Of a DNA stretch of 38,386 bases, positions 3,662 to 36,691 are shown in pieces. Below the pieces are notes generated by a model that saw only the letters and a program-made list of their open reading frames with translations, was not told the DNA's origin and did no database searches. How positions within the stretch are numbered: position 1 is the first letter of the stretch; each line of letters begins with the position of its first letter. The position numbers and the translations under genes are program-made. The DNA comes from Novosphingobium sp. ST904 (GTDB lineage: Bacteria > Pseudomonadota > Alphaproteobacteria > Sphingomonadales > Sphingomonadaceae): assembly GCF_001298105.1 (NCBI RefSeq), contig NZ_LGJH01000117.1, positions 1 to 38,386 on the forward strand, written 5' to 3'.

Positions 3662-3704
3662 CCGCACCCGGCTCCTCCGCCCGCCATCGCCGGGCCTGCG
3701 CGCC

Positions 3705-6554: not shown

Positions 6555-8489
6555 TCAGGTCCTGCCGGTAAAGGCGCCCAGCCCCGCGATGGCGAGCATA
6601 CCGGCGGGAAGCGCCGTGGCCTCGAAGGTCAGGCGCAGATAGCGTGCCTTTACCGGAGCGGGGAAGGCGATGCGCTGGGTGGCGAGCGCATAAGCGATGT
6701 TCCCGAATTCCCCGGCCGCACTGCGCTTCCAGGTCTTGCCGTCAAGGCTGGTCTCGGCGACGTAGCCCCGGGGCGGCGCGGAATCGGCCATGACCTGCCG
6801 GGACGGCGTCAGCGTGAAACCGCCCAGCGCTTCGGCCCGGCCAAGGTCCACCGTCACGCGCGCGGGTTTGCCCGGCTGGGGGGCGGGCTGCTTCCAGATC
6901 GTCGCCGCATCATTGTCCAGCAGCCGTTCCGCGCCCGGCGCGCTGGCGGCAACGATGGTCCACTTGGTGGAATCCAGCACGCTGGGATCGGTCGAGACGA
7001 TCGCCGGCACATCGACAGGCGCCACCGAGGCGAACAACGCGAATTCCGAGATCGCCGGCGCCGCGCTGCCTTCGAGGACGACCAGCCGCACCCGGCGCGG
7101 CGCGATCGGCTGCGGCAGGCGGATGATGCGCTGCGCGCCGATGCATTCCTTCTCGGCAAGGCGCTGCCACTGGCCGTCGATCTCCGCTTCCACCGCGAAG
7201 CGGGTCACGCGGATTCCCAGCGGCAGGTATTCCCGCAGGCGCACCACGTCGAAGCGCGTGCCCGGCGCGAGGTCGAGCGTCAGCGTCGGGGTCAGCACGG
7301 CGTCGGGCGCGGACCAGTAGGTCTCGCGCTGGCCGTCCAGCACCTGCGCGGGCGCGAAGCGGCCCCCGCGCGAGGCGCTGGCATGGGCAACGCTGCCCTG
7401 CGCCAGATCCTTCGCGAAGGTCGCGCGGATCGCATCGCCGAACGACTTGAGGATCTTCACGTCCTGATCGGCGATCCGGCCCCGCCGGTCAGGCGGCAGG
7501 TTCAGGTTGAGATTGGTGCCCCGGCCCACGGATTCGTCATAGAGGCGGATCAGGCGCGCCGGGCTCTTGACCTTGGAATCCTCGTCGGCGTGATAGAACC
7601 AGCCGGGCCGGATCGAAACGTCGGTTTCCGCCGGCCACCAGATCTCGCCCCCGCGCAGGCCCGCATTGCCCACGTCCTGCTCATAGGGAACGTTCGGCAT
7701 CGTCGGCCAGCAGGGATCGCCCGCCACGCCGTCCTCATTGCCGACCCAGCGCACATCGGCGCCAAGCGGATCGAACGTGCAGGCATCGGGCTGAAGTTCG
7801 TGGACCAGCTTTACGATCGAGGGCCAGTTGTAATACTTCGGCGCATCGATCTTGCGCGCCTCGCGCGCGCCGCCGTAGTAACCGTCGCCGCCGTTGGCGC
7901 CGTCGAACCAGACTTCGAACAGCTTGCCGTAGCGGGTGCACAGTTCGGTCAACTGCTTGCGGTAATAGTCGATATAGGCCGGGCGGCCGTACTCCGCGTG
8001 GTTGCGGTCCCACGGCGAGAGATAGAGCCCGAACAGCATGTCCGCCTTGCGGCACGCTTCCGACATTTCCGCAACGATATCGCCCTTGCCCGCCTTGTAG
8101 GGGCTGTTGCGGATCGAATGCTCGGTAAGCTGGGTCTGCCAGAGGCAGAAGCCGTCATGGTGCTTGGCGGTCAGGATGACGCCGCGCATTCCCGCAACCT
8201 TGGCCGCCGCAACGATCTGGTCGGCATTGAAATCCGTCGGGTTGAACCACTTGGGGTCCTCGTCGCCGTAGCCCCATTCCTTGTCGGTGAAGGTGTTCAT
8301 GGCGAAGTGCACGAAAGCGTACATTTCGTGCGCGTGCCAGTTCCACTGCCGCGCCGAGGGAACCGCGCCCGAGGGCAGCGGCGCGGCGGCATCACCGGCG
8401 GCGCGGCGCGCGGCCTGCGCGGCGTCGGCGCCAAGCGCAGTCGCCGCGACGGCGGAAGTGGCGAGGAAACGGCGGCGGGAAAAGTCCAT
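6555..8489 (-). CDS. GH29 alpha-L-fucosidase, Tat-exported, C-terminal F5/8-type domain
   Basis: Predicted to remove terminal alpha-linked fucose with retention. The 644-residue protein starts with a twin-arginine signal, SRRRFLATSAVAATALGADA. The catalytic barrel shows AKHHDGFCLW (residues 108-117), GLYLSPWDRN and EVWFDGANG, where Asp196 is the expected nucleophile. Further conserved parts are the LNLNLPPDRRGRI segment and NGWFYH-like RPGWFYHAD. The architecture, with a discoidin-like C-terminal module from about residue 490 (DNDAATIWKQ, then TVDLGRAEALGG), fits the subfamily acting on alpha-1,3/1,4-fucosides, though linkage is inference. The ATG at 8489 is preceded by a good RBS, AAGGACTGACG. 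It is the last gene of the five-gene operon, 30 bases after GH125. The frame is intact. Confidence 0.93.
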   Translation of the reverse strand: MDFSRRRFLATSAVAATALGADAAQAARRAAGDAAAPLPSGAVPSARQWNWHAHEMYAFVHFAMNTFTDKEWGYGDEDPKWFNPTDFNADQIVAAAKVAGMRGVILTAKHHDGFCLWQTQLTEHSIRNSPYKAGKGDIVAEMSEACRKADMLFGLYLSPWDRNHAEYGRPAYIDYYRKQLTELCTRYGKLFEVWFDGANGGDGYYGGAREARKIDAPKYYNWPSIVKLVHELQPDACTFDPLGADVRWVGNEDGVAGDPCWPTMPNVPYEQDVGNAGLRGGEIWWPAETDVSIRPGWFYHADEDSKVKSPARLIRLYDESVGRGTNLNLNLPPDRRGRIADQDVKILKSFGDAIRATFAKDLAQGSVAHASASRGGRFAPAQVLDGQRETYWSAPDAVLTPTLTLDLAPGTRFDVVRLREYLPLGIRVTRFAVEAEIDGQWQRLAEKECIGAQRIIRLPQPIAPRRVRLVVLEGSAAPAISEFALFASVAPVDVPAIVSTDPSVLDSTKWTIVAASAPGAERLLDNDAATIWKQPAPQPGKPARVTVDLGRAEALGGFTLTPSRQVMADSAPPRGYVAETSLDGKTWKRSAAGEFGNIAYALATQRIAFPAPVKARYLRLTFEATALPAGMLAIAGLGAFTGRT

Positions 8490-8519
8490 CGTCAGTCCTT
8501 TGGTAAAGGCAGGCGCGTG

Positions 8520-9976
8520 TCAGAGCGGCGCGGAAAGCAGTTCGGGCCGGGTATCGGCCAGCTTGACCAGCAGTTCCCCGAAGAGCCCGTTGGCCCAGGC
8601 GAACCAGTCACGCGTGAATTTGGCAGGATCGTTGCTGTCCACCGCCTCGTGGATGAAGCCGGTGCCCGCGTCGGTATCGCGCAGCATCCGCAGCATCGCG
8701 CGGATCACCAGCGGATCGCTGCTCGACAGCGCGCGCACGATCAGGCTCATCGGCCAGACCTGCCCAAGCCCGACATGCGGCCCGCCGATGCCCTCGATCC
8801 TCGATCCCCGGAAGAAGTAGGGGTTCGCGTCCGACCAGCAGGCCTCCGCCGTGGCTTTCCAGAGCGGATCGGCGGCGTCCACGCATTCGAGGAAGGCAAG
8901 ACCCAGCAGCGAGGGGACGTTGGCATCGTCCATGAACATCGCGTTGCCGAAGCCGTCCACTTCGTAGGCCCAGACCCGGCGGCCGTCCGGCAGCAGCATC
9001 GTGCCCCACTGGCGCAGCGCCGCTTCCACCTCGCTTGCCAGCGCGCGGGCATCGGCGGCCAGCGCGGTGTCGCCGCGGGCCTGCTCGGCCACGGTGGCCA
9101 TCTCGCGCAGCGATGTCACCGCGAAGAGGTTGGCCGGGATCAGGAACGGATACGTGCAGGAATCGTCCGAGGGGCGGAAACCGCAGTGGATCAGCCCGAC
9201 CGCACGGCTCGGCGCGCCCCAGCCATCGAGTTGCATGGTCTCGGTCGGCCGGTTGCTGGTGCGCAGGAAGCGATAGGGTCCGGGCGATCCCTTGCGCTGC
9301 TGTTCGCGCAAGGTGCGCACGCAGGCGCGCGAGGCTTCGGCCCAGGTCTCGTCAAAGGGCAGCTTGTCCCGCGTCTGGCGCCAGTAGCGGAAGCCGAGCG
9401 CATCGCATAGCAGAGCGAATCGATCTCCCATTTGCGCTCGGCCACGCCGGGCTTCATCTCGGTCTGGTCCTTCAGCGCCCACGACAGATTGGTCTTCGCA
9501 GACGGATCGCGCATGAAGGCATTGGCGTAAGGATCGATCAGGATCGAGCGCGACTGGCGGGCGATCAGCCCCCGGAACAGCGCGGTCAGCGCCGGGTCCT
9601 TGTTCACCAGATGGAGGTAGGGCAGGACCTGCGCCGTGCTGTCGCGCAGCCAGAGGCAGGGAATATCGCCGGTGATGACGAAAGCGTCCGGGCGGCCGTC
9701 CACGCTGGCCATGAAAACGGTAGTGTCGAGCGTGTTGGGATAGCAGCCCACGAACATCGCGCGCAGCTTGGGATCGGCGATCTTGCGCGATACGCGGTCG
9801 ATCTCCGCCTCCACCGCGCGGCTGACGTAGCGCCGCTCGAACACCGGCGGACGGCCGCCGCCTTGCGGCATGGGTATCGTCGCCGCATGGGCCGAGGCAG
9901 GCAGCGCGAGCGCCGCTGCACCCGCCATCGCGCCTGCCAGCGCGCTGCGGCGGTCGAGGTTCGTGGTATCGCTCAT
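8520..9976 (-). CDS. GH125 exo-alpha-1,6-mannosidase (frameshifted)
   Basis: Family GH125 enzymes are metal-independent inverting exo-alpha-1,6-mannosidases that trim N-glycan mannose. The start is ATG 9976, in a TGATG overlap with the GH3 stop, giving an N-terminal Tat-like signal with [20 protein letters not shown]. Family motifs are [27 protein letters not shown] (containing the conserved acid), DPYANAFM and [11 protein letters not shown]. Near 9403 the frame must change, after EIDSLCYA, to continue [11 protein letters not shown] and then [47 protein letters not shown] and [16 protein letters not shown]. The joined length is about 485 residues, normal for the family. The break is probably a sequencing indel because conservation holds on both sides. 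Confidence 0.9.
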
Positions 9977-12564
9977 CACTTCGGCAGCTCCTGCGCCTGT
10001 CCGGTCAGGGTGAAGGAAACCCATGCGCCCGCGCCGTCACCCGGCTGTCCGCCGCCGATCCACACCTTGTAGTCCCCCGGCACGACCTTGCGCGTGCCCC
10101 GCCGGTCCACGACCGAGAGGCTGCGCGGATCGATGGTGAGCGTAACTTCGCGCGACTTGCCCGCCGCCAGCGGAACGCGCGTGAAGGCGGCAAGCTGGCG
10201 CTGCAAGACACCCTGCGTCATGATCGGGCGCGGCTCGATCACCGGCGGCACGACATAGGCCTGCACCACTTCCTCGCCCGCCATGGCGCCAAGATTGCGC
10301 AAGGTGGCCGTGACCGTGACCGGCTGGCCGAGAGCGGGTGCGGAGACCTTGGCCCCTTCGTAGCCGTAAGTCGTATAGCTCAGGCCATGGCCGAAGCCCC
10401 AGAGCGGCTTGCCGGTGAAGTAGCGATAGGTCCGCTCCTTCATCGAATAGTCGACGAAGGCGGGCAGATCGCTGGTGGACTTGTAGAAGGTCACCGGCAG
10501 GCGGCCCGAGGGGTTGTTGGTCCCGGCGAGCGTCTCGGCAATGGCGGTGCCGCCCGCCTCGCCCGGATACCATGCGGTCATCACTGCATCGGCCATGGCC
10601 GGATCGATCGAGACCGCGCTGCCGTTCGTCAGCACGACGATCACCGGCTTGCCGGTGGCACGGAGCGCCGCCAGCAGCTCTGCCTGCGGCTCGGGCAGCC
10701 CGATATCGCTGCGGTCGCCGCCGACGAAGCCCGGCACCTGCACCTGCAGCGCCTCGCCTTCGAGATCGGGCGAAAGGCCGAGCACGGCAACGATGGCGTC
10801 GGCCTGCGAAGCGGCCTTCACGGCCTCGGCGCGCTGGGCGTCTGCGGGTGGCAGCCACATGAGGCGCAGGCCCTCGTCCTCGCCGTAATGGTCGAGTTCG
10901 AGGCTGATCGGCTGCGGCGAGCCATCGGATGCGATGTCGAATTCGACCCGCTGCTTGCCGAGCACGCCGCTGTGCAGTTCCTTGCCGCCGATGCTCAGGC
11001 GCACGTCGTCATGGCGGGTGCAGTCCTTCCAGCAGGCCGGAATGTCGAGCGCGAGGCGATAGGTTCCCGCTCCCGGCGGCACCAGCGATCCGCTCCAGCG
11101 CACCTTGAAGCCCTTGGCGTCCAGCCCCTTGGGCGCGGTGCGGGTGAGGTTGAAGTCCACGCGGCGATCCTGCCGCACGAACACGCGCTTGCCCGACATG
11201 TCGAGATATTCGGCGCGAAGACCGGGCTTGCCATCCGCGACGAGCGCGGTTTCCGGCACGACCACGGGCGCACCCTCGGCCAGCACCGAGCCTTGCGCAT
11301 AAGCGACGTTGGCCGCGCCGAACTGACGGCGGATGCCTTCCAGCGGCGTTACCGGATCGGCGGCGGTGCCGTGGTAATTGGCCTCGATCACCGAAAGGTC
11401 GTCGGCATTGGTGCCGATCACGGCGAGGCGGGTTCCGGCCTTCAGCGGCAGGCGGCCGTTCTCGTTCTGGAGCAGGACCACCGACTTGCGCGCGGCTTCC
11501 AGCGCGAGGGCGCGGTGGGCGGGGGAGTTGACCTCGCCCGGCTTGATCTTGCCCCACGGGTTGCTCGCCCCGAAGGCGATGCCCAGCTTGTAGCGGGCTC
11601 CAGCGAGCGGGCACGCGCGGTCGACCTCGGCCTCGGTGAGCAGGCCGCGCGCCACCGACTGGGTGAGCGCGGCGTAAGTCGTGCCGCAGTCGAAGTCGGT
11701 GCCCGCCTTGATCGCCGCGGCCGAAGCCTCGGCGGCGTCGTAGCGGTAATTGTGGAACATCCAGATGTTCGCCACCGCATCGCAGTCCGACACGACGAAG
11801 CCCTTGAAGCCCCAGTCGCGGCGCAGAGTGCCGTTCAGCAGCGCATCGTCGGCGCAGACCGGCACCCCGTGGGTGGAGTTATAGGCGCACATCAGCGAGA
11901 GCGGCTTGGCCTCGGTCACGGCCTTGCGGAAGGCGGGCAGGTAAGTCGCCTCGCGGTCCTGCGGGCTGACATCCACGTCGAAACTGTCGCGCCCGGCCTC
12001 GGGGCCGGAGTGGACGGCGAGGTGCTTGGGCGTCGCGATCACGCGCGGATGGAGCGGATCGGGGCCTTGCAGACCCTTGATGAAGCCCACCGCCAGCGAG
12101 CCGGTGAGGAACGGGTCCTCGCCGTAAGTCTCCTGACCCCGGCCCCAGCGCGGGTCGCGGAAGATGTTGATGTTGGGCGACCAGATCGTCAGGCCCTCGT
12201 AGATGCGCCGGTCGGCATCCACGGGCTTGGCATTGAACCTGGCGCGCGCCTCGGTGGAGACGACGGTGCCGACTTTCTCCATAAGCGCCGGATCGAAGGT
12301 CGCGGCAAGGCCGACCGCCTGTGGGAACACCGTGGCCACGCCGTTGCGGGCAAGGCCGTGGAGGCCCTCGTTCCACCAGTCATAGGCGGGCAGGCCCATG
12401 GCCTTCGCGGCAGGTGCGGTGCTCTGGAGCTGGTCCGCCTTCTCGGCCAGATCGGCCTTGGCGATGGCGGCGAGCACGGCGGGATCGGCCTCGCCCGACA
12501 GGTCCTGAGCGGCGGCAGGCGCCGCCAGAACCATGGCGAGGGTGATCGGGAACAGCGCCCTCAT
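9976..12564 (-). CDS. GH3 glycosidase of beta-xylosidase type with PA14 insert
   Basis: A periplasmic GH3 hydrolase of about 862 residues with a Sec signal peptide ([17 protein letters not shown]). The start is ATG 12564, overlapping the beta-mannosidase stop as TGATG; GTG at 12567 is an alternative. The catalytic domain carries [30 protein letters not shown], the KH pair at about 180-181 and [14 protein letters not shown]. The nucleophile is in [10 protein letters not shown] (Asp about residue 260). The SDCDAV form resembles beta-xylosidase/arabinosidase GH3 enzymes rather than the SDW form of beta-glucosidases. A PA14 domain (about residues 440-570) interrupts the C-terminal alpha/beta domain, and a fibronectin III-like domain ends the protein. 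In this setting it likely removes the core beta-1,2-xylose of plant N-glycans, which is inference. The frame is intact. Confidence 0.88.
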
Positions 12565-15180
12565 CACCCTTCTCCCGCCAATGTGCGCAGCACCAGCGCC
12601 TTGCGCAGCGCCGCCGCATCGGCCTTCGAGGTGATCTCGATCCGCACGCTCTCACCCGGCAGCAGGTCGAAGCCGTTGTCCGAAGCCTGCGCATCCACTG
12701 CGCCGAAATCGAGCATGACCGCGCGGGCCAGCGCCCTGGCGGTGATCGTCACCGCCTTGCCGTCCCAGCTCGCGGCAAGGCCGGGCGCGGGATAGGCCAT
12801 GGCCTTTGGCAAGGCACGCTCGACGATCTGGCGCGAGACGGTCTTGCCGCCGATCACCAGTTCCGCCACCGCATAGCTCGCCTCTACCGGGGCGTTCGCG
12901 AAGACCGCAGCGTCCGACACATCGGGAACGGAAGTGGCGGTCGTCGGAGCCAGCGTCACCGCCCCGCCCGCTTCGCCCAGCTTCGTGCCGTCCATCCCGT
13001 AGCCGGTCAGGCGCCACTCCGCCGCGACCGGGCTGGTGGCGTCCGACGCGAAGCTGACCCTGGTCACGCCCTGCTTGTGCTCGGCCACCACCGCCTGCGG
13101 GGCGAAGAAGCGCCGCGCGGCGTAGTGCAGCAGCTTCCAGCGCCCCTCATAGTCCACGCTCGCCCACGAGATCGAGGGCCAGACGTCGTTGAGCTGCCAG
13201 TAGAGCGAACCCAGCGTCACCGGCGCACAGCGCGGTGGTGGCGCGCGGCCATATCGATCGCCTGCGCCTGGTTGACTTGCGTGAGGTAAACGAAGTCCGC
13301 CAGATCCTTTGCCGGGCGCAGCCTTGCGTCAAGGTAGAACTTCAGGCGCTCGTTGCCCTCGCCTGCGAGGAACTTCTGGTGCGCCTTCATCACCGGGCTG
13401 TCCGGCGCTGCGCCGCATCGCCCGCGAAACCGCGGATCGTCGCCATGACCGGCATCGCCTGGAAGCCATATTCCGACATGAAGCGCGGGCAGGAAAGCGT
13501 ATAGTTCTCGACCGGCTTGGAACCCGACCAAACATCCCAGAAGTGGCGGTCGCCCGCGGCATCGGTATCGACCGGGCCTTCGTAATCGGTCGAAGGGGAA
13601 CCCGGCCAGTAGGGCGTGGTCGGCGAATGATCCGTCACGGCGCCGCGCAGCACGCGGTCGAACAGCACGGTCATCGAAGTCGCCATGCGCTCGTGTTCCT
13701 CGGCGCCGACGGCCTTCTTCCAGGCCTTGCGGTCGCTCCAGGTTTCCCAGCCGGAGATAACCTCGTTGCCGCCCGCCCAGATCACGATCGAGGGGTGCGA
13801 GCCGAGCCGCTCGACCTGCTGGTCCGCCTCGATCCGCACGTTCTCGCGGTAGCCGACGTCGGCAGGCGGCACCGCGCCGCCGAACATGAAGTCCTGCCAG
13901 ACCATCAGGCCCATGCGGTCCGCCATGTCGTAGAAGCTGTCCGGCAGATAGTAGCCGCCGCCCCAGACGCGGATCATGTTCATGTTGGCCGCGCGGGAAT
14001 CCTCCAGCAGCGACTGCATCTTCGCGTCGGTAACGCGCGAGGGGAACATGTCGAAGGGAATGAGGTTCGCGCCCTTGGCGAAGACCGTCACGCCGTTCAC
14101 CCGGAAGCCGAAAGCGCCGCCCCCGCGCACGAGTTCGACCTCGCGCAGACCGATATTGCGCGCCGCCTTGGCTCCGGCGCCCGCGCCGGAAGCGATCTCG
14201 CCCGAAACCTTGTAGAGCGGCTGATCGCCGTAGCCGACCGGCCACCAGCGCTTCGGCGCGGCGACCGTCAGCGGCACGGTGACCACGCTTTCGCCCGCAT
14301 CGAACGAAGCCTCGCGCGAGACCGGGGCGAGCGCTTGCCCGTCCGGTCCGGTCACGCGGGCGGCGAACTGCGCCTTGCCCGGCTTGTCCGCGAAAACGCG
14401 GAACTTCGCCACCAGCCGCGCCTCGTCCTTGCCGAGCGCTTCCTGCACGACCTCGAAGGCGCCGAGCCGTGCCTCGTCCCAGGCTTCCAGGCGCACCGGC
14501 CCGGAAATGCCCTGGTTGACGATGCGCGGGCCCCAGTCCCAGCCGTAATGGTACTTGGCCTTACGGATATAGGCGGAAGTCTGCTTGCCCTTGGGCTCAT
14601 CCCCGAAGGCGGAATCGTATTCGCCGGGCAGCGGATGCGCCTCGGCCAGGACCATCGGCTGCAAGGTGCGGATCGGCGAGGCGAAGCGCACGAGGATTTC
14701 GTTGCGGCCCTGCTTGAGGAATGCCTTGGCGGCGACGCGCCACTGCCGGTGGCCGTTATCGGCCTTGAGCACCTGCCTGCCGTTGATGAACACGGTTGCG
14801 AAAGTATCCAGCCCGCCGAACACGAGGTCGAGATGCTCGCGGCCCATGGCTTCGGCGCTCACGTCCAGCGTGCGGCGCAGTTCCCAGTCGGTCAGCCCGG
14901 CCCACTGGATCGCCGCCTCGTTGGTGCCAAGGAACGGATCGGGCACCTGCCGCGTGGCGATCAGGTCCTGCTGCACGGTGCCCGGCACTTGCGCGCGGAA
15001 CCAGCGCGCGGCCTTGGGATGGGCCTTTACGGCAGCTGTATCGCCCGGCGCGATGCGGGCCTGCCAGCCCTCGTCAAGCGCGGTCTGCGTGGGCGGGGCC
15101 GCCAGCGCGGCCCCCGAAACGCCCGCCAGCCAGAGGGCCAGCGCCCCGCTTGCGAATGGACCTGCAAGCCTGCCCGCCAT
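12564..15180 (-). CDS. GH2 beta-mannosidase (two frameshifts)
   Basis: Predicted to remove the beta-1,4-mannose of the N-glycan core. About 872 residues when joined, the usual beta-mannosidase length. A Sec-type signal ends near GVSGAALAAPP. Diagnostic parts are RKAKYHYGWDWGPRI, VFAKGANLIPFDMFPSR and MIRVWGGGYYLPDSFYD. The acid/base Glu is about residue 473 in WAGGNEVISGW and the nucleophile Glu about 570 in FMSEYGFQAMP. The frame changes near 13415, resuming AAPDSPVMKAHQKFL, and again near 13228, resuming TLGSLYWQLNDVWPSISWAS. The immunoglobulin-like C-terminus runs to TGA 12566-12564. The ATG at 15180 lies two bases after the GH20 stop; GTG 15186 is an alternative. Both breaks look like sequencing indels. 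Confidence 0.9.
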
Positions 15181-15182
15181 CC

Positions 15183-17612: not shown

Positions 17613-17791
17613 ACCTGCCCCTCGTTTTCTTGTGACCAGAGCAGGCAACGTAACCAAAATATATCCTTTCCCGCAATAGGTCTTATTCTATTCCTGCGAA
17701 TTGGGCTTGAACTGCGACCATTTGCTGCGATTGTCAGCGCGACATGACCAATGTAAAGCCATTCGCAGAGAATGGACCGAAGGGGGATCGA
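17613..17791. promoter_or_regulatory. Divergent promoter region between the glycosidase operon and the GntR gene
   Basis: This 179-base AT-richer gap must hold the promoters for the minus-strand glycosidase operon and the plus-strand regulator. On the minus strand TATTTTGGT occurs at 17661-17653, 41 bases before the GH20 start. The same 9-mer lies before the TonB receptor at 30049-30057, and a similar TATATTGGT lies before the deaminase at 28962-28970. These may be operator half-sites for the adjacent GntR protein. AAGGGGGATCGA is the RBS of the regulator. I could not fix convincing -35/-10 boxes. Confidence 0.5.
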
Positions 17792-21452: not shown

Positions 21453-21483
21453 GCGACTTGAAAAAGAGAGCGGATGCAGTAAC

Positions 21484-21502
21484 TTCCCTTTCGTAAAGGG
21501 GA
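21484..21502 (+). promoter_or_regulatory. Hairpin covering a ribosome binding site
   Basis: TTCCCTTT (21484-21491), a CGT loop, and AAAGGGGA (21495-21502) form a near-perfect stem. Its right arm contains the AAAGGGG that should serve as RBS for the ATG at 21509. The structure could damp translation of the downstream gene or act as a weak stop for the beta-galactosidase transcript. Confidence 0.5.
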
Positions 21503-21508
21503 ACTGGC

Positions 21509-22349: not shown

Positions 22350-22357
22350 GGCAGGTG

Positions 22358-26673: not shown

Positions 26674-26701
26674 AGTTTTGGCTTGTCTCCAGAAATCGAT
26701 A

Positions 26702-27830: not shown

Positions 27831-28876
27831 CACAGGGTCTCGGTTACCTTGCGCAAGTGGGCCGGATTGTCCGGGTCCAGCCCGCGCGCCAGCGAAAGTG
27901 CGTTCACTTGCGGGTAGAAGGACTGGATCATCAGCAGCGGTTCCAGCGCCGCATGGCCCGCAAGCGCGGCCAGCGTGCTTTCCCCGAAGGGTGCCTCGGC
28001 ATCGAGCAGCGCGACTTGCGCACCGCGCCCGGCAAATTCGCGCGCGGCATCGCGCACGCTTTCGCCGCTGGCGTCGGACGTGGCGAAGGCCACGATGGGG
28101 AAGCCTTCGTTGATGATCGTCATCGGGCCGTGGCGCACTTCGGCGGCGCTATAGGCTTCGGCATGAAGACCGCAGGTTTCCTTGAGCTTCAGCGCGCCTT
28201 CCTGGGCGATGCCGAAGCCGTATCCGCGCGCGATCACGAAAAGGTTCGTCGCTGCGGAAAGCCGTTCGACCAGATCGAACGGCGCGGTGCCGGCGGCAAT
28301 GGCCAGCGCATCGGGAAGCCTGCCGAGCGCCTCCGTCAGCGCGGCGTCGCCGGTCCACTGCGCGACGATGGCGGCGACCCCGGCAAGCGAGGCGATGTAG
28401 GACTTGGTGGCCGCAACCGACTTCTCCGGCCCGGCGTGAAGCGGCAGCACCCACTGCGCCAGATCGGCAAGCGGGGCGGTCTCGTCATTCACCAGCGCGA
28501 CGACGCGGGCACCCGCACGGCGATGCGCCTCGACCGCCGCGAGCAGGTCGGGGCTACGGCCACTTTGCGAAATGGCGATCACGAGCACGCGGCCCGGCTG
28601 CATCTCGGCGCCGAACACCGACGAAACGCTGAGCGCGGAAGAGGACACCGGCACACCGGCCAGCGTCTCGATCAGGTACTTGGCGTAAGTCGCCGCGTTG
28701 TCGGACGACCCGCGCGCGCAGGTCACCACCACCGAAGGCGGGCTGCCGCGCAGGTCCTGCGCAAGCGATGCGAGAGTGTCCTGGTTGCGGGCCAGGAACG
28801 CGCGGACGGCCTGCGGCGCCTCGGCGGTCTCGCGGGCCATGAGCGACTGGGACGGATGAGCAACTTCGGATTGCAT
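27830..28876 (-). CDS. SIS-domain glucosamine-6-phosphate deaminase (NagB-II type)
   Basis: Predicted to convert glucosamine-6-phosphate to fructose-6-phosphate and ammonia, replacing the unrelated NagB. The 348-residue protein consists of two SIS domains resembling the isomerase half of GlmS, without the glutamine amidotransferase domain. Phosphosugar-binding motifs are CARGSSDNAATYAKYL (residues 53-68), AISQSGRSPD (101-110) and EKSVAATKSY (151-160). The second domain has EGALKLKETCGLHAEAY and AEVRHGPM (245-252). It has a strong RBS, AAGGAGA, nine bases before ATG 28876. It is the first gene of the nag operon and overlaps nagA. It could also be annotated as a generic SIS isomerase, but its position next to nagA supports the deaminase role. 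Confidence 0.88.
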   Translation of the reverse strand: MQSEVAHPSQSLMARETAEAPQAVRAFLARNQDTLASLAQDLRGSPPSVVVTCARGSSDNAATYAKYLIETLAGVPVSSSALSVSSVFGAEMQPGRVLVIAISQSGRSPDLLAAVEAHRRAGARVVALVNDETAPLADLAQWVLPLHAGPEKSVAATKSYIASLAGVAAIVAQWTGDAALTEALGRLPDALAIAAGTAPFDLVERLSAATNLFVIARGYGFGIAQEGALKLKETCGLHAEAYSAAEVRHGPMTIINEGFPIVAFATSDASGESVRDAAREFAGRGAQVALLDAEAPFGESTLAALAGHAALEPLLMIQSFYPQVNALSLARGLDPDNPAHLRKVTETL

Positions 28877-28940
28877 TGCGGCGAAATCTCCTTCGCACCG
28901 CCCCCGGTCGGCGGAAAAGCGCCAGACGGGAGCGCCTGCT

Positions 28941-28971
28941 TACCAATATCTACATAAGTTCTATATTGGTA
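28941..28971. promoter_or_regulatory. Inverted repeat, candidate operator of the nag operon
   Basis: TACCAATAT (28941-28949) and ATATTGGTA (28963-28971) form a perfect 9-bp inverted repeat with a 13-base spacer, 65 bases upstream of the deaminase start in an AT-rich pocket. The right arm extends to ATTGGTATTCCCCAA, which resembles the DasR/NagR operator type (TGGT...ACCA palindromes). It is a strong candidate site for the GntR regulator. Confidence 0.6.
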
Positions 28972-29002
28972 TTCCCCAACTGCAGGCGATGCGCAATTGG
29001 TT

Positions 29003-29045
29003 TCGCGAGGGCAAGCGCGTTTTTCTTCCGGCACTACCCTCGCGA
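29003..29045. repeat. 9-bp inverted repeat between cutC and the nag operon
   Basis: TCGCGAGGG (29003-29011) and CCCTCGCGA (29037-29045) are perfect inverted arms with a 25-base spacer. It lies 29 bases after the cutC stop on the minus strand. No T-tract follows, so it may be a weak terminator for cutC or an upstream regulatory element for the nag operon. Confidence 0.45.
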
Positions 29046-29073
29046 GCGGTCGCTGCGTGTCGCTCTACCCCTT

Positions 29074-29852
29074 TTAGGTGTCGTTCAACCCGCCTTGCCC
29101 ACGCGCGAAGGCAGCCTGCAGCCGGGCCACCTCGGCAGCGTCCGTCACCGGCCGGATTCCCTTCTGGAAGCCCAGTTCTTCCAGCCGCCCCGATGCCGCT
29201 GTCGCCGTGCCGGGGGTGCGGCAGGAGGCGTGAAACTCCTCGATTCCGGCGCGCGCAGAGCCGGCACCGCCTCGGCCGAGACCCCCGATCCGGCCAGAAT
29301 CACGATGCGCCCGGCGGCCAGTTCATGGAGATGCGCAAGCATCCGCACCCCCTCGGGCGCCCGCACCGCGCCGCCGGACGTCAGAATCCGGTCAAACCCC
29401 ATCGCCACCGCCTGCTCCAGTCCGTTTTCCATGTCGTCCAGCACGTCGAAAACGCGGTGGAGGGTCAGCGAAAGCCGGGCCCCGCGCGCCGCTCCCGCGT
29501 GCCGGGCATGATCGAGCCAGGTGCCGAGAACCGCCAGGTCAAGTCCGCCCGCAGCGCCCGCCCCGATGACGATTCCCGCCAGCCCCGCTTCCGCGGCCAG
29601 ATCGATATCGTCGCAGACTTGCGCGGTTTCCTGCGGCCCGTAGACGAAATCGCCCTCTCGCGGGCGGCAGAGCATATGGACGGGAATCGGCGCCTGCGCC
29701 GCCAGCCGGACCAGCGAACGCGGCGGCGTCAGCCCGCCCAGCGCCAGCGCGCTGCAAAGCTCCACCCGGCCGCCACCCCCGGCGACAGCGGCAGCAAGAC
29801 CGGCGGCATCTTCGACACAGATTTCGAGCACTTCGCCCCTTCCAAAAGACAT
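29074..29852 (-). CDS. cutC: CutC family TIM-barrel protein (C-terminal frameshift)
   Basis: CutC proteins are small cytoplasmic TIM barrels named for copper homeostasis, though their true biochemical role is uncertain. The N-terminal part reads LEICVEDAAGLAAAVAGG, GRVELCSALALGGLTP, VHMLCRPREGDFVYG, TLHRVFDVLDD and FDRILTSGGA, all typical. The frame then degenerates after VPALRA near 29257. Changing frame restores GIEEFHASCRTPG, EELGFQKGIRPVTDAAEVAR and a TAA stop at 29076-29074, giving about 259 residues, normal for CutC. ATG 29852 is the first start; GTG 29831 has the better RBS (AAGGGGCGAA). It is divergent from the TonB receptor. The reason for its presence in a sugar locus is unknown. 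Confidence 0.87.
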
Positions 29853-30174
29853 CCGGCCCCGTCACGGCCGGCGATTCGCACTGTCGGAAATTGGACATAC
29901 TTTGGCCCGACGCGCCATCCCGTTCCACCGCAAAGCCAATGCCGCCAACAGCCAGCCCAGCCGCCGCAACCTCCCATTTTCCCACCATTCCCGCCAATTT
30001 TCGACCACCTCGGCACGCAAGAAGAAATTTACGGTGGACAGGAGGATCTATTTTGGTGACATTGAATTAGGACATTGGCTTTGTATTGGCATTGTCCGCA
30101 GGAAGTTATCGGGCACGCATTTCCGCAAACATAACGTCACGGCGCGCTCACGGGTTCGGGTCATGAGGAAAACT
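29853..30174. promoter_or_regulatory. Intergenic region between cutC and the first TonB receptor
   Basis: These 322 bases hold no convincing gene; the receptor frame stays open through them only by chance. TATTTTGGT at 30049-30057 repeats the 9-mer found upstream of the GH20 gene and may be an operator. A run of ATTG elements follows at 30061-30095, in the most AT-rich part, where the receptor promoter probably lies. An AGGAGG at 30040-30045 has no sizeable frame behind it. Confidence 0.45.
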
Positions 30175-32859
30175 ATGATGAAACTAGCACGCGCGATGCT
30201 GCTGGCGACGAGCGCCACCATGGGCTTCGCCGCCCCCGCCTTTGCACAGGAAGCCCCGCAGGACCAGAACGACCAGGACGCGATCGTGGTCAGCGGAATC
30301 CGCGGCGCACTGACGAACGCGATCAACGTGAAGCGCAATGCGGACGCCGTGGTCGATGTCATTACCGCTGAAGGCATCGGCAAGTTTCCTGACCGCAACG
30401 TCGCGGAATCGCTGTCCCACATCCCCGGCGTCAGCGTGGACCGCCAGTTCGGCATCGGCGAGCGCGTCTCCATCCAGGGCACCGACCCGGCGCTCAACCG
30501 CGTCCTGATCGACGGGCACACCATCGCCTCGGCAGACTGGGGCGGCAATTCCGGCGACGTGACCGGCCGTACCTTCAACTACTCGTTGCTGGCGCCGGAA
30601 ATCGTCTCGCAGATCGAGGTGTTCAAGTCCCCCGAACCGCGGATCGACGAAGGTTCGCTGGGCGGCACCGTGATCGTGCGCACGCGCAAGCCGCTCGATC
30701 TCGACAAGAACACCATCAACGGCTCGATCGGCTACGGCTACAACGATCGCTCCGAAATCGGCAATCCGCGAGGCTCGCTGCTCTACAGCTGGAAGAACGA
30801 CAGCGCGACCTTCGGCATCCTGGTGGCGGGCACTTACGACAGGGATTCGCTGGCCCGTGCAGGCGTCGAGTACTTCGGCTACAACAGCGGCTCGGACTTC
30901 ACGTCCACCGATGCCGACGGCAACGTCACGCTGAACAACCCGAACGCAGTGCTGACCGGCGGGACCGCCGAAGACCTGGCCAACGCCCGTTATCCCTACG
31001 GCATCAACCACGCCTATTTCAAGCAGACGCGCGAGCGCATCGGCGGCCAGTTCGCCGTGCAGTGGGCGCCCAGCGACCGCCTCGAATTCAACCTGACCGG
31101 CCTTCACATCGAAGGCACCTACAACAACTTCAGCCAGTCGCAGTACGTGGTTCCGACCTGGGCCGCCGGCGCGCTGGAATCGGCAACGATCTCCAACGGG
31201 CTCGTCACGGACGCATCCTTCGGCGCGACCAACCTGCCCTCCACCAGTTCGCAGCTGGACATGAACTACCGCAAGACCAAGGTGCGGACCGACAGCTACA
31301 ATCTCGACACCACGTGGAAGGCAACCGATCGCCTGACGCTGTCGGGCAACGTGGGCTGGACCAAGGCCACGGGCGGCACCAACCCCGAATACCTGATGAA
31401 CCTCCAGTCCAACATGCCCTTCAGCTACAGCTACGGGCAGAACCAGACTTCGGTGACGTTCTCCACCCCGCCGACCGACCCCACCGCGTTCTTCCGCTCG
31501 GACCTGCGCGATGTCACGCTGCCGGACGGCAGCACCATCCAGGCATACCAGATCGGCGGCATCGCCACCTCGCGCCAGCGCGACAAGGAGCATTACGGCC
31601 AGTTCGACGCCAAGCTGGACGTGGACGACGGCTTCTTCAAGTCCGTGCGCATGGGCGTGAAGGCATCGGATCACGTCAACAGCCTGCGCGCCACCGGATC
31701 GCAGGTCTACCTGACCGATCCGATCAGCCTTGCCGACTACGACTACACCCTGACGCCCTCCGGGCTGTTCAGCGGCCTGGGCTCCGGCGGCAACGCCAAC
31801 CAGTTCGCGACGCTGCACAGCGGCGACGTCATCGACACGCTGAACAACGGCATCTACGTCGATACCGGCCTCGACGAAGGAACCTCGTTCAAGGTCCGTG
31901 AGAAATCGGCCGCCGCCTATGTGCAGCTCGACTTCGAAACCGGCCCGATCCGCGGCAACGTGGGTTACCGGGCGGTCTATACCCAGGACGTTTCGGACTA
32001 TTACCTCTACACCGCCGAAAACGACACCTACACGCCGACCCGCGCCACGAACGATTATCTGAAGGGCCTTCCCAGCATCAACGTGAGTTGGGAAGTGAAC
32101 GACCAGCTCAAGCTGCGCGGCTCGATCGCCAAGGTCATCGCCCGTCCGCGCTACGGCCAGCTTGCCGGCGCCTTCAGCCGCAACGACACGCAGCTGACGG
32201 CAGCCGGCGGCAACCCCGACCTCAAGCCTTACGCCTCCACCAACTACGAGCTTTCAGCCGAATGGTACTTCGGACACAGCGCGCTGCTTTCGGCCGAGTA
32301 TTTCCGCCGCGAAATCTCGTCCTACATCGTGACCACCACGAGCCAGCAGGTGCTGTTCAACAACCTGACCCAGCAGAACGAGACCTATATCGTCTCCAGC
32401 CCGGTCAATGCCTCGAACGCCACCGTCAACGGCGTGTCACTGGGCTTCCAGACCCCGATCTGGGGCGGCTTCGGCATCCTGACGAACTACACGTTCGCCG
32501 ACGCGAAGGGCGGCCGGGACGCCGACGGAAACGTGCTCAACCTGCCCTACCTCTCGAAGCACACCATCAACGTGATCCCCTACTTCGAAAAGGGTCCGTT
32601 CCAGGCACGCGTGAGCTGGAACTGGCGCAGCCACTACTTCACCGGCATCGGCCGCCTGAATTCGGTGGATTCGACCGACGGCTATCACCAGCTTGACGCA
32701 TCGATCTCCTACAAGATCAACGAGCACTTCACGGTTCAGGCCAATGCCCAGAACCTGCTGGATTCGACGTATTACTCGTACAGCGGCACCAAGTCGGCGC
32801 CGACCGCCTTCTACAAGAACGGGCGCGTCTTCGCGGCGACTGCCCAGTTCAGCTTCTAA
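30175..32859 (+). CDS. TonB-dependent outer membrane receptor
   Basis: An outer-membrane beta-barrel receptor of the Xanthomonas/Caulobacter TonB-dependent class, many of which import oligosaccharides. I chose ATG 30175 (894 residues) because GAGGAAAA precedes it; ATG 30163 and 30178 are close alternatives. A signal peptide ends at APAFA before QEAP. A likely TonB box is DAIVVSGIR. The plug domain shows GKFPDRNVAESLSHIPGVSV, ERVSIQGTDPALNRVLIDGH and QIEVFKSPEPRIDEGSLGGT. The barrel ends with NAQNLLDSTYYSYSG and the terminal aromatic QFSF, so the frame is complete. Next to GH92 and glycosylasparaginase, its likely cargo is an N-glycan or glycopeptide, which is inference from context. Confidence 0.93.
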   Translation: MMKLARAMLLATSATMGFAAPAFAQEAPQDQNDQDAIVVSGIRGALTNAINVKRNADAVVDVITAEGIGKFPDRNVAESLSHIPGVSVDRQFGIGERVSIQGTDPALNRVLIDGHTIASADWGGNSGDVTGRTFNYSLLAPEIVSQIEVFKSPEPRIDEGSLGGTVIVRTRKPLDLDKNTINGSIGYGYNDRSEIGNPRGSLLYSWKNDSATFGILVAGTYDRDSLARAGVEYFGYNSGSDFTSTDADGNVTLNNPNAVLTGGTAEDLANARYPYGINHAYFKQTRERIGGQFAVQWAPSDRLEFNLTGLHIEGTYNNFSQSQYVVPTWAAGALESATISNGLVTDASFGATNLPSTSSQLDMNYRKTKVRTDSYNLDTTWKATDRLTLSGNVGWTKATGGTNPEYLMNLQSNMPFSYSYGQNQTSVTFSTPPTDPTAFFRSDLRDVTLPDGSTIQAYQIGGIATSRQRDKEHYGQFDAKLDVDDGFFKSVRMGVKASDHVNSLRATGSQVYLTDPISLADYDYTLTPSGLFSGLGSGGNANQFATLHSGDVIDTLNNGIYVDTGLDEGTSFKVREKSAAAYVQLDFETGPIRGNVGYRAVYTQDVSDYYLYTAENDTYTPTRATNDYLKGLPSINVSWEVNDQLKLRGSIAKVIARPRYGQLAGAFSRNDTQLTAAGGNPDLKPYASTNYELSAEWYFGHSALLSAEYFRREISSYIVTTTSQQVLFNNLTQQNETYIVSSPVNASNATVNGVSLGFQTPIWGGFGILTNYTFADAKGGRDADGNVLNLPYLSKHTINVIPYFEKGPFQARVSWNWRSHYFTGIGRLNSVDSTDGYHQLDASISYKINEHFTVQANAQNLLDSTYYSYSGTKSAPTAFYKNGRVFAATAQFSF

Positions 32860-32925
32860 GTCCCGTGCAAAAGCGTGTAGGTCCTCCTCCTCCTCACTAA
32901 GATCTGCATGCACACGGGCCGGCGC

Positions 32926-32964
32926 CTGTCCGGGGCTTCCTGCCTGCGGACAGCGCGTCCTTTT
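32926..32964 (+). terminator. Hairpin after the TonB receptor
   Basis: CTGTCCG (32926-32932) and CGGACAG (32947-32953) form a 7-bp stem with a 14-base loop. TTTT follows at 32961-32964, seven bases beyond the stem. It lies in the 145-base gap before the GH92 gene and could partly terminate the receptor transcript or process the polycistronic RNA. Confidence 0.45.
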
Positions 32965-33004
32965 ATGAAACAGGCCTTGTAGAACGGGGCCTCATAGACT
33001 GGGG

Positions 33005-35353
33005 ATGCCAGACATGACTGCCTTGAGTCGCCGCCACCTGATGTCCGGCTCCTGCCGCCTTGCGCTGCTGGCCGCCGCCGTTCCTGCCGGCGCGACCCGC
33101 GCTCTTGCAGCGGAAGCGCGCCGGCCGGAACCGGGACTGATGCCGTGGCCGATCCCTTCATCGGCACCGGCGGCGACGGCCACACTTTCCCGGGCGCCAC
33201 CCTGCCCTTCGGCATGGTCCAGCTCAGCCCGGATACCGACACTGCGCGCTGGGACACCTGCTCCGGCTATCACCACGGCGACGCCTCGCTGCTCGGCTTC
33301 TCGCATACCCACCTTTCGGGCACCGGCATCGGCGACATGCTGGACGTGCTGGTCGTGCCCTGCCGGGGCGAGGTCCGCCTAAAGCCGGGACCGCTCGACC
33401 GGCCGGACGAAGGTTATCGCCTGCGCTACGGCAACGAGGCGGCGGAACCCGGCTACTACCGGGTCCAGCTTGAAAACGGCGTGTCCAGCGAACTGACCAC
33501 GACGCTGCGCACCGGCATCCAGCGCCACAGCTATCCTGCTGGAGAAGCCGGCCACCTGCTGATCGATCTCTCGCATCTCGTGCTCGATTCCTCGGACAAG
33601 TATCCGCTGATCGACGATGCGGAAATGGCACTCGACGCGGACGGCACTCTCACCGGCCAGCGCCGGGTTTTCCGCTGGGCCAAGGGCCGGCACATCTACT
33701 TCGCGATGCAGTTTTCCCGCCCGCCGAGCCGGGTGGAATTCTTCGGTGACGAAGACAGCCCCCAGCCTGCCGGCAGCAAGCTGGTCAAGGGTCGCCGCCT
33801 GAAGGCCGCCATCCACTTCGACGATGCCGGAAGCGCGCCGCTGGTGGTGCGAACCGCCGTTTCGGCCGTGGACATCGCCGGTGCCCGCGCGAACCTCGCG
33901 GCGGAGGCGACGCACTTCGACTTCGACATCTATCGCCAGGCCGCTGCCCGCGCATGGGCGGAGGAACTTCGCATATCGGAGTGACCGGCGGCAGCGCCGA
34001 ACAGCGCACGATCATGGCAACCGCGCTCTATCACGCTGCGATCGGCCCCACGCTGTTCTCCGACGTCGATGGCCGCACCATGGGGCTCGACCGCAAGGTG
34101 CACCAACTCGCGCCGGGCCAGAAAGCCTATAGCGCCTATTCGCTCTGGGATACCTACCGCGCCTTCCACCCCCTGCAGACGCTCATCCGGCCCGCGCGGT
34201 CGAGGAGTTCGTTTCCGATCTTATACGCCAGACCCAGCAGAGCCCTTATGGCCCGCCGGTCTGGCCGCTGCAGGGCGTGGAGACCGGCTGCATGATGGGC
34301 TGGCATTCGGTGCCGGTCCTTGCCGAGGCCATGGCCAAGGGCATCCCCGGCGATTACGCGGCCGCCTGGCCCAATATCCGCCGCCGCTCGTTCGACTTCA
34401 CGATGCCCGTGCTCGACAATGCCCGCGGCATTCCGGAATATGACGCCAAGGGCTACGTCCCTGCAGACAAGGTCTTCGAAAGCGTCAGCCGCACGCTCGA
34501 ATATGCCTATGACGACTATGCCGCCGCAAGGATCGCCGGCGCCGCAGGTGCTGCAGACGACGCCGCGCGGCTGAAAGCACGTTCGGGCAACTGGAAGAAC
34601 GTGTTCGACACGCAAACCGGATTTGCCCGGCCGCGTCTCGACGACGGTTCCTGGACCGAGCCCTACGATCCGGTCGAACTCGGCCATTCGGACAAGTGGC
34701 GCGATTTTACCGAGAGCAACGGCTGGCAGGCGACGTTCCTCAACCAGCACGACGTCCATGGCCTGGCCGAGGCGATGGGCGGCCCGGCCGGGCTCGAAGC
34801 CAAGCTGGATGCCTTCTTCAACGCGCCTTCGACCCTGCCGAAGAACGCACCGCCGGACATCAGCGGCATGGTGGGGCAGTATGCGCACGGCAACGAGCCC
34901 TCGCACCACGTTGCCTATCTCTACGCCTGGACCGGTGCGCACTGGAAGACGCAGGCCATGGTTCGCCGCCTGCTGGCGCTGATGTACCGTGCCAGGCCGG
35001 CAGGCGTGATCGGCAACGACGATTGCGGCCAGATGAGCGCCTGGTACGTGCTTTCGGCTCTGGGTTTCTACCCGGTCGATCCCGTCAGCGGCATCTACAT
35101 CTTCGGCAGTCCGCTGTTCGAGGAAGCGCGGGTCAGGCTGGGCAATGGCCGCGAACTGATCGTCAGCGCACCGGGCAACCGATCCGACCGCCCCTACTAC
35201 GGCCGCGTGGAATGGAACGGAAAAGCACATGACCGCTGCTGGATCGGCCACGAAGAGCTCATGAAGGGCGGCAGGCTCACCTTCCACATGCAGAACGTGC
35301 CTGAATTGGGCTTCGCCCGCGACCCGCACGGCCGCCCGCCAAGGCAGGCCTGA
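33005..35353 (+). CDS. GH92 exo-alpha-mannosidase, Tat signal (three frameshifts)
   Basis: GH92 enzymes are calcium-dependent inverting exo-alpha-mannosidases (alpha-1,2, -1,3 or others) central to N-glycan trimming. The start ATG 33005 (or 33014) gives SRRHLMSGSCRLALLAAAVP, a twin-arginine signal. The frame changes near 33137 to give DPFIGTGGDGHTFPGATLPF, GFSHTHLSGTGIGDMLD and YRVQLENGVSSELTTTLRTG. A change near 33977 gives GSAEQRTIMATALYHA and SLWDTYRAFHPLQTLI. A change near 34197 gives GPPVWPLQGVETGCMMGWHS. The rest is intact: YAHGNEPSHHVAYLYAW and GNDDCGQMSAWYVLSALGFYP, the family hallmarks. The joined length is about 783 residues, a normal GH92 size. Linkage preference cannot be set from sequence alone. 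Confidence 0.9.
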
Positions 35354-35566
35354 GACGGAATCACGCGACCTTTCCGCGATGAGGTGAGACCAATTAGCGA
35401 CATATTCCGTCAAAAATCGGAAAAATCTAATGCCAATCTGAATTTTGGAATTGAATTTATTTAATACCTATGACAGCTTTGTTGCAAGGCAGGCTTCGGG
35501 AAGGGCGTGCCGTTCCGTAACTAACGAAAAATCGAGGTGGCCATCTCTGGCCGGGGGACAGTGGGC
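35354..35566 (+). promoter_or_regulatory. AT-rich region upstream of the glycosylasparaginase
   Basis: A 213-base gap with a markedly AT-rich core at 35395-35475, unlike the rest of the window, suggesting a promoter. TTGGAA (35445-35450) and TATGAC (35469-35474) with an 18-base spacer could serve as -35 and -10 boxes. TGGAATT (35446-35452) and AATACCT (35463-35469) look like a degenerate inverted copy of the TGGTATT half-sites seen elsewhere. No gene is evident. Confidence 0.4.
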
Positions 35567-36562
35567 ATGGGATTCTCGCGTCGCAACACCTTGGGACTTG
35601 CCCTGGCCGGATCGGTCGCGGCAGGAACGGCACGCGCTGCCGGCACCACGAAGAATGCCGTCGATGCCGCGCTCGTGGTGTCGACATGGGATTTCGGCGC
35701 GGCGGCGAATGCCGCTGCCTATGCTCGCTGGAAAGCCGGCGGAACACTGATCGACGCGGTCGAAGCCGGTGCGCAGGTGCCGGAAGCGGATCTTGCCAAT
35801 CACTCCGTCGGGCTGGGCGGATACCCTGACCGCGATGGCCACGTCACGCTGGACGCGATCATCATGGACGACCGCGGCCATGCCGGCGCGGTCGCCGCGC
35901 TCGAAGGCTACGTTCATGCGATCTCCGTCGCGCGGCGCGTCATGGAACGCACGCCGCACACCATGCTGGTCGGCGACGGCGCGGCGCAGTTCGCACGCGA
36001 ACAAGGCTTCGCAGCGCAGGAACTGCTGACGCCCGAGGCAGAGGCGGCGTGGAAGGAATGGCTCAAGAAGGCCGAATACAAGCCGGTGGCCAATATCGAG
36101 AACCAGCGTGGGTCGGCGCTCGACCATGACACGATCGGCATTCTCGCGCGCAGCCCCGACGGGCGCCTCGCCGGCGCCTGCACGACTTCGGGCATGGCTT
36201 TCAAGCTTCGCGGCCGCGTCGGCGATTCCCCGCAGTCGGGCTGCGGGCTGCTGGTCGAACCCGGCGTCGGCGCAGCCACGGCAACCGGCGTGGGCGAGGA
36301 AGTGACGCGCATTGCCGGTGCCGCAAGAGTGGTCGGCTCGATGCGCATGGGCATGTCGGCCATGGCCGCCTGCCGCGAAGCGGTAGAGCATATCGTTGCC
36401 TTGCGCGGAGACGCCGTGAAGGACGCCCAGGTCGCATTCCTCGCAATCGACAGGAACGGCCAGGTCGGAGCCTTCGCGATCCAGCCCGGCTTCACTTACG
36501 CGGTAACGGACCAGACCGGCCGGACCGTCATCCGTCCTTCGGAAAGCCTCCGCCGAGCCTGA
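35567..36562 (+). CDS. N4-(beta-N-acetylglucosaminyl)-L-asparaginase (glycosylasparaginase)
   Basis: Cleaves the bond between GlcNAc and asparagine, the last step in dismantling an N-glycopeptide. It is an Ntn-hydrolase made as a precursor that cuts itself before a catalytic threonine. The 331-residue protein starts at ATG 35567, with GGGGACAG as RBS, and carries a twin-arginine signal, SRRNTLGLALAGSVAAG, so it should act in the periplasm. The cleavage site is LDHDTIGILA, with Thr189 becoming the new N-terminus. Downstream, ACTTSGMAFKLRGRVGDSP matches the substrate-binding stretch of Flavobacterium and human aspartylglucosaminidase, which separates it from plant-type isoaspartyl asparaginases. 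The frame is intact. It follows GH92 but has its own AT-rich upstream region. Confidence 0.93.
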   Translation: MGFSRRNTLGLALAGSVAAGTARAAGTTKNAVDAALVVSTWDFGAAANAAAYARWKAGGTLIDAVEAGAQVPEADLANHSVGLGGYPDRDGHVTLDAIIMDDRGHAGAVAALEGYVHAISVARRVMERTPHTMLVGDGAAQFAREQGFAAQELLTPEAEAAWKEWLKKAEYKPVANIENQRGSALDHDTIGILARSPDGRLAGACTTSGMAFKLRGRVGDSPQSGCGLLVEPGVGAATATGVGEEVTRIAGAARVVGSMRMGMSAMAACREAVEHIVALRGDAVKDAQVAFLAIDRNGQVGAFAIQPGFTYAVTDQTGRTVIRPSESLRRA

Positions 36563-36563
36563 C

Positions 36564-36637: not shown

Positions 36638-36648
36638 AGAACCAGATT

Positions 36649-36673: not shown

Positions 36674-36691
36674 GAAGAAAAGGGGTAACGA

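Follow-up and report, generated by a model that had tools for sequence, protein, structure and literature searches.

Bacterial loci for the use of N-glycans are known from Xanthomonas, Bacteroides massiliensis and Lactobacillus casei. The Xanthomonas system comprises nix (nixD-nixL) and nag, whose original papers are Dupoiron 2015 and Boulanger 2010; in passages of PMC5700972 and PMC6718126 it includes a fucosidase, a hexosaminidase, a beta-mannosidase, NixI and NixJ (glycoside hydrolase (GH) family numbers presumed), the mannosidase NixK, a galactosidase and a TonB receptor. Passages of PMC9522356 report that B. massiliensis enzymes of families GH29, GH3 (beta-1,2-xylosidase), GH92, GH2 (beta-1,3-galactosidase) and GH20 act on the N-glycans of plants, with a likely sequence of steps, participation of a peptide-N-glycosidase (PNGase) and genes spread over several loci, and passages of PMC6960285 describe L. 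casei alf-2, which combines a fucosidase and a GntR-family regulator with a glycosylasparaginase as the last step. Here we analyse a contig of 38,386 nucleotides from Novosphingobium sp. ST904 (the window, G000:C112:1-38386; genome of 6.27 Mb in 165 contigs, 96.3% complete), in which an island of ~32 kb (6555-38386) encodes two TonB receptors, seven enzymes of exo-glycosidase families, an enzyme of the glycosylasparaginase family and an N-acetylglucosamine (GlcNAc) phosphotransferase system (PTS) pathway. Judged from its sequence, the island is very probably an exo-only utilisation locus for plant-type N-glycopeptides.

The content of the island resembles that of nix, with a fucosidase, a hexosaminidase, a beta-mannosidase, GH3, GH125 and GH92 enzymes, a galactosidase and a TonB receptor. 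No counterpart of NixF (COG3858), which we take to be GH18-like, was found among the scanned open reading frames (ORFs) of the window, and the genome gave no GH18 match; we therefore regard the island as working like nix without filing it as nix. Its PTS import and GntR/UTRA regulator also differ from the importer and regulator reportedly present in Xanthomonas. The island galactosidase belongs to GH2, whereas NixL is assigned to COG1874 in a passage of PMC5700972. The initial annotation had drawn the same parallel, which holds as a functional likeness, but had named the asparaginase as a difference; this part fails, as PMC5700972, in the passage concerned, places an asparaginase in the nix neighbourhood. 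A passage of PMC6718126 likewise places cutC there. Unlike the B. massiliensis system, the island unites GH125, beta-mannosidase and glycosylasparaginase genes in one place, with no PNGase seen and no SusD family member among the 30 ORFs of the window that were scanned with Pfam (all at least 198 amino acids (aa); overlapping ORFs only partly covered). L. casei differs in handling fucosyl-GlcNAc-Asn intracellularly via a major facilitator superfamily (MFS) permease, and mannosidase, xylosidase and galactosidase are not among the genes listed in the relevant passages of PMC6960285.

Families were called with Pfam and NCBIfam profiles, and export and catalytic motifs were read from the translations by regular expression and by eye. 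All families named in the initial annotation were recovered with Pfam, and catalytic motifs were found in the island enzymes. The product of 35537-36562 is predicted to be a true glycosylasparaginase (EC 3.5.1.26) that hydrolyses GlcNAc-Asn: it scores 311 bits against solved bacterial glycosylasparaginases in PDB, and its HDTIG motif, with the catalytic threonine in place, starts at residue 197, close to residue 199 from which solved glycosylasparaginase beta chains align. An isoaspartyl peptidase, the alternative identity, is ruled out by a score of 97 bits against that group. These values uphold the earlier view of an exo-only N-glycan set ending in this enzyme. The GH29 enzyme matches 8ayr best in PDB (552 bits) and the alpha-1,3/4-fucosidase 3ues with 334.5 bits; the GH3 enzyme scores 726 bits against NCBIfam Xyl3A (below the cut-off of 1250) versus 345 for BglX, with the xylosidase 7vc7 as its top PDB match. 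Core xylose and core alpha-1,3-fucose are marks of plant N-glycans. Taken with the B. massiliensis roles (PMC9522356) and the alpha-1,6 specificity given for GH125 in a passage of the review PMC10154615, these specificities suggest that the set would take a plant complex N-glycan down as far as its last GlcNAc. The enzymes thus fit plant complex N-glycans; "complex N-glycan", as first proposed, was apt but left the plant kind, to which the alpha-1,3/4-type GH29 and xylosidase-type GH3 point, unnamed.

Gene content, families, order, conservation and selection are the basis for the following scheme, in which substrate, cleavage order, compartment and regulation are our proposal. Uptake of N-glycan-Asn or short glycopeptides would probably fall to the TonB receptors. 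Apparently periplasmic enzymes would first remove antennary fucose (GH29), galactose (GH2), GlcNAc (GH20) and alpha-1,3-mannose (GH92), next beta-1,2-xylose (GH3), core fucose (GH29) and alpha-1,6-mannose (GH125), and last beta-mannose (GH2) and the outer GlcNAc of chitobiose (GH20). Glycosylasparaginases require free Asn according to a passage of PMC6960285, so proteolysis must precede, and the island enzyme would probably cut GlcNAc-Asn after its Asn has been set free by proteases from genes outside the island. The EIICB/EIIA-HPr-EI PTS would take up GlcNAc, and NagA and NagB-II would convert it to fructose-6-phosphate, with GntR as the likely repressor of the locus.

To place the island among its relatives, we sampled 80 named GH125 loci from genome contigs and counted genes of at least 50% identity to the proteins of the metagenome-assembled genome Novosphingobium sp. 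BIN1, the nearest named relative among the loci found. The GH2 beta-mannosidase, GH3 and GH125 genes share order and strand in 52 of the 80 loci, are joined by GH29 and GH20 in 44, and occur together with a GntR gene in 29 within the DNA read. The conserved order, which the initial annotation had proposed to look for in sphingomonads, is more than chance, and a locus unique to the source genome is refuted by the 52 loci with the same core. Core carriers are mostly Sphingomonas and Novosphingobium, although the GH core also occurs in Azospirillum sp. RU38E and Niveispirillum irakense (L010, L013), and several locus records are leaf isolates by title. The EIICB, EIIA-HPr-EI, NagA and NagB-II genes adjoin on one strand, an order shared with BIN1, Leaf230 and Rr 2-17. 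In Sphingomonas sp. Leaf230 a single stretch holds GH29-GH92-GH125-GH3-GH2 mannosidase-GH20, GntR-GH2 galactosidase, EIICB-EIIA-HPr-EI-NagA-NagB-II-CutC-glycosylasparaginase and a TonB receptor. Among 199 evenly drawn genomes of the family, our own included, GH125 was found in six (one a weak fragment).

Glycosylasparaginase was counted in 50 genomes, picked largely for a visible cluster (those of 49 of the 80 named loci plus our own; L019 was left out of genome-set searches). It is present in 41, and in 33 it lies on the same contig as EIIC at a distance of at most 40 kb. Counted were PF01112 matches of ~180-206 bits starting near profile position 29-33, with one of two fragments added in G048 and a small further piece there excluded; matches above 250 bits, paired half matches in G066 and G073 and one match at E 4e-4 were set aside as another asparaginase type or fragments. 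Three loci with sphingomonad-like GH125 carry the titles Bacillus sp. 2B10, Microvirga sp. SRT01 and Arthrobacter sp. TPD3018 (L043, L052, L053) and are perhaps misnamed. Four others (L098, L101, L102 and L103) contain GH92-GH125-GH92 and a TonB receptor, with the other N-glycan enzymes not in the stretch read, and are perhaps mannan or N-glycan core systems.

A gene overlooked in the initial annotation encodes a member of the CutC family (PF03932), which extends from bacteria to humans and has solved members from human (3iwp) and Shigella (1x8c/1x7i/1twd). Its NCBIfam score, 110 bits, is below the cut-off of 311. CutC is present in all 50 genomes of the cluster set; because these were chosen for a visible cluster, this is not an unbiased rate, and in the 199 evenly drawn genomes, which serve as control, only six matches were found at E <= 0.001, five of them over the cut-off. 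It lies within 300 bp of glycosylasparaginase in 19 of the 50 genomes and within ~3 kb at 10 of 18 further glycosylasparaginase loci sampled phylum-wide (8 of the 18 read over extended stretches), and the two genes are close in 7 of 10 genera, in varying orders and on varying strands. Chance estimates for this recurrence take no account of relatedness. The island member thus differs from the family at large by its tie to N-glycan loci. A relative 93% identical over 91% of the window CutC has the TIM-barrel fold of the family; apart from CutC itself, its fold neighbours are for the most part barrels that handle phosphorylated substrates. We suggest that CutC may act on a sugar or sugar phosphate in the N-glycan pathway, and not on copper.

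The opposing account, in which CutC is a passenger or a real copper protein found in these loci by chance, is a serious possibility that falls somewhat short of an even chance. Copper-type genes do occur nearby, namely a multicopper oxidase close to CutC in L141 and, in L142, a heavy-metal P-type ATPase downstream; the control genomes of E. coli, Caulobacter and Lactococcus all have CutC, whereas the GH125 control matched only Lactococcus; and a passage of PMC6718126 files the gene under copper metabolism. The association is also incomplete: 8 of the 18 phylum-wide loci lack CutC in the DNA read around glycosylasparaginase, CutC stands without glycosylasparaginase in L096, L099 and L107 as far as their DNA was read, and the pair stands without other enzymes in the stretches read of G375 and G428. 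The recurrence across genera in differing arrangements and the rarity of CutC elsewhere in the family speak against this account, and PMC6338753, in the passage concerned, ascribes the copper tolerance of cutC-overexpressing E. coli to the sigma-E response. Among the matches listed for CutC and N-glycans, PMC5700972 and PMC6718126 are on topic, each in the passages noted above; in PMC11419382 and PMC10316084 "CutC" occurs as the name of a reference-list author only. No paper joining CutC with glycosylasparaginase was found in the literature search. We know of no copper test of CutC members tied to N-glycan loci.

As to what CutC might do, passages of PMC6960285 describe 1-amino-GlcNAc, the direct product of glycosylasparaginase, as not metabolisable and as decaying at acid pH. 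An enzyme acting on 1-amino-GlcNAc, or on the 6-phosphate that PTS uptake would yield, would be useful, and CutC is a candidate. It is a long shot that CutC is a cytosolic phosphosugar enzyme, not a copper protein, that clears the glycosylamine from GlcNAc-Asn cleavage, for example as 1-amino-GlcNAc-6-phosphate after PTS uptake; one weakness is that the amidase looks exported and CutC, which has no visible signal peptide, does not. Three other arrangements were seen. At ~5955-15574 of L096, CutC has genes for a GH127 beta-L-arabinofuranosidase and an MFS sugar transporter nearby. In G599, of the same class (L137, L162), nag PTS, GntR, NagA, SIS and GH92 genes lie ~14-22 kb from a convergent glycosylasparaginase-CutC pair. 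In G411 (L147), of the same phylum, CutC and glycosylasparaginase are separated by a GH85 gene (an endoglycosidase family), and GH2 mannosidase and GH92 genes lie around them.

Several observations weigh against the exo-only N-glycopeptide locus as a whole. One GH29 enzyme would have to serve two fucose linkages, the glycosylasparaginase type is missing in 9 of the 50 cluster genomes, and 7 of 15 genes are broken in this assembly. GH29, GH92 and glycosylasparaginase look exported, judging from twin-arginine signal motifs only. No palindromic NagR/DasR-like operator was found in the window or BIN1, and no promoter-shared operator was seen. No endoglycosidase was seen in the locus, with GH85 outside the genome-wide search, and the PNGase F C-terminal domain was found in none of 18 genomes, in a search without a positive control. 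For our own genome, the other searches agree with the initial annotation, which had noted no endoglycosidase or PNGase in view: PNGase A was found in none of the 18, our own included (the control matched in Sulfolobus only), and GH18 gave no match in our own genome or in BIN1. Twelve of the 18 have one or two GH18 matches each, in open frames of ~1110-1200 aa that are presumed to be fusion proteins.

That no endoglycosidase was seen in the locus would also suit a route in which foreign endoglycosidases or PNGases release the glycans and the glycosylasparaginase here only recycles left-over GlcNAc-Asn, as would the prior proteolysis that the need for free Asn implies (PMC6960285). We consider this unlikely, given that the enzymes for core fucose, xylose and mannose could equally act on glycan-Asn and that the amidase gene stands in line with the PTS genes in Leaf230. 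A different target polymer with mannose, fucose or xylose in it (fungal glycans, for instance, or an exopolysaccharide), with glycosylasparaginase as a side gene, is very unlikely. The polysaccharide-synthesis genes at the left end of the window lend this some colour, and the GH92-GH125-GH92 groups that stand alone in four loci may point to mannan use; against it, each linkage in the complex N-glycans of plants has its match in the set, whose last enzyme is of a type specific for GlcNAc-Asn, and blastn gave no match to the left-end genes in the BIN1 stretch, in which the island has different neighbours. The BIN1 flanks look unrelated, with what we take to be a LysR-type regulator on one side and, further on, presumably arginine-catabolism-like genes on the other. 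The left-end genes themselves (957-5787; ManC-like, epimerase, flippase and a family 2 glycosyltransferase) give mostly partial family matches, as if frame-broken too.

We used BIN1 as the reference for frames, alignment and the ratio of nonsynonymous to synonymous substitution rates (dN/dS). The window is ~90% identical to it in nucleotides over 6601-21441 and ~84-85% over 22358-29921 and 32843-38291. Seven of the 15 shared genes are broken (Table 1; TonB receptor 2 compared over its first 530 residues, to the contig end), and all 15 counterparts in BIN1 are single open frames. Over aligned codons, dN/dS is 0.035-0.24 in all 15, broken and whole alike; all are thus under purifying selection. 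Overlapping same-strand ORF pairs, a crude sign of split genes, number 2.08 per 10 kb in the window and 1.65 in seven other stretches of the same assembly (one with 0; the three shortest of ten were dropped); in BIN1 the values are 0.41 for ten stretches and 0.19 for the locus itself. Because such pairs are commoner throughout our assembly than in BIN1, the breaks look assembly-wide, and open BIN1 frames together with purifying selection make assembly error the likelier cause. Decay of the locus in the source organism to a state in which it no longer works is hardly credible: the broken frames and a mean ORF length of 330 aa in the other stretches versus 349 aa in BIN1, by which the assembly is not grossly fragmented, are in its favour, but the BIN1 frames, the dN/dS values and the assembly-wide ORF overlaps speak against it, and locus-specific decay is rejected as the source of the breaks.

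The genes of the island are listed in Table 1. The region first marked, 6555-36562, is a real island that runs on through TonB receptor 2, from 36692 to the contig end; the families first listed for it stand, with the corrections that seven genes are not single open frames and that CutC was missing. TonB receptor 1 is absent at the corresponding place in BIN1 (an alignment gap); in Rr 2-17 and N. capsulatum it has GH92 and CutC as neighbours. An ORF at 21509-22735 has no Pfam or NCBIfam match and is missing from the corresponding site in BIN1; a BIN1 gene ~25 kb away resembles ~500 bp of it at 67%. Scans of the window for tRNAs and Rfam families gave no match in either case.

Table 1. Genes of the island in the window, with their frames in this assembly and the lengths of the open BIN1 counterparts.
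Predicted product	Position	Strand	Frame	BIN1 (aa)	Matches and motifs
GH29 alpha-L-fucosidase, F5/8C domains	6555-8489	-	whole, one open frame	643	PF01120; twin-arginine motif SRRRFL; WFDGA
GH125 exo-alpha-mannosidase	8520-10024	-	broken, two frames	501	PF06824 in two pieces
GH3, beta-xylosidase-type	9976-12567	-	whole, one open frame	861	PF00933/PF01915
GH2 beta-mannosidase	12564-15186	-	broken, three frames	866	Ig_mannosidase, Mannosidase_ig, Glyco_hydro_2_N2
GH20 beta-hexosaminidase	15183-17657	-	whole, one open frame	799	PF00728, 374 bits; GGDE motif
GntR/UTRA regulator	17744-18532	+	whole	246	PF00392, PF07702; dN/dS 0.035 vs BIN1
GH2 beta-galactosidase	18529-21452	+	broken, two frames	971	PF02836, DUF4982; larger piece NCBIfam GalA 756 bits, under cut-off 900
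PTS EIICB, NagE-type	22358-24082	-	whole, open	575	PF02378, PF00367; ACTTRL motif
Fused EIIA-HPr-EI	24079-26673	-	whole, open	859	PF00358, PF00381, PF05524, PF00391, PF02896
NagA, GlcNAc-6-phosphate deacetylase	26702-27833	-	broken, three frames; aligned to open BIN1 gene	380	PF01979 on N-terminal piece
NagB-II, glucosamine-6-phosphate deaminase (SIS)	27830-28876	-	whole, open	348	NCBIfam NagB_SO3506, 340 bits (cut-off 430)
CutC	29101-29852	-	broken near C-terminus	278	PF03932, 174.6 bits, over cut-off
TonB-dependent receptor 1	29902-32859	+			TIGR01782, 673 bits
GH92 alpha-mannosidase	33005-35353	+	broken frames	781	PF17678, PF07971; twin-arginine motif
Glycosylasparaginase	35537-36562	+	whole, open	350	PF01112; twin-arginine motif; HDTIG self-cleavage site
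TonB-dependent receptor 2	36692-38386	+	broken, cut by contig end	1002	PF07715

Collectively, these results describe a variant of a plant N-glycan locus that is conserved in sphingomonads, ordinary in kind and notable for its completeness, its spread and its link to CutC. The initial annotation knew of no sphingomonad version, and we found none described in the literature searched; because subscription papers lie mostly outside that search, "not described" means not found there. Papers naming both Sphingomonas and Novosphingobium with N-glycans were off topic by title, and in a further search Sphingomonas was not mentioned in the matches listed. If the long-shot reading of CutC as a glycosylamine-clearing enzyme is right, CutC would fill a step regarded as spontaneous, and would do so in a family that reaches from bacteria to humans; through the link to N-glycan loci, a conserved protein with a doubtful copper label can be tested directly by genetics and biochemistry. 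Leaves and roots commonly carry sphingomonads. If the island works as proposed, stripping plant N-glycans with exo-enzymes only would give these bacteria carbon and nitrogen from plant glycoproteins, and the locus would offer a matched enzyme kit for plant-made proteins.

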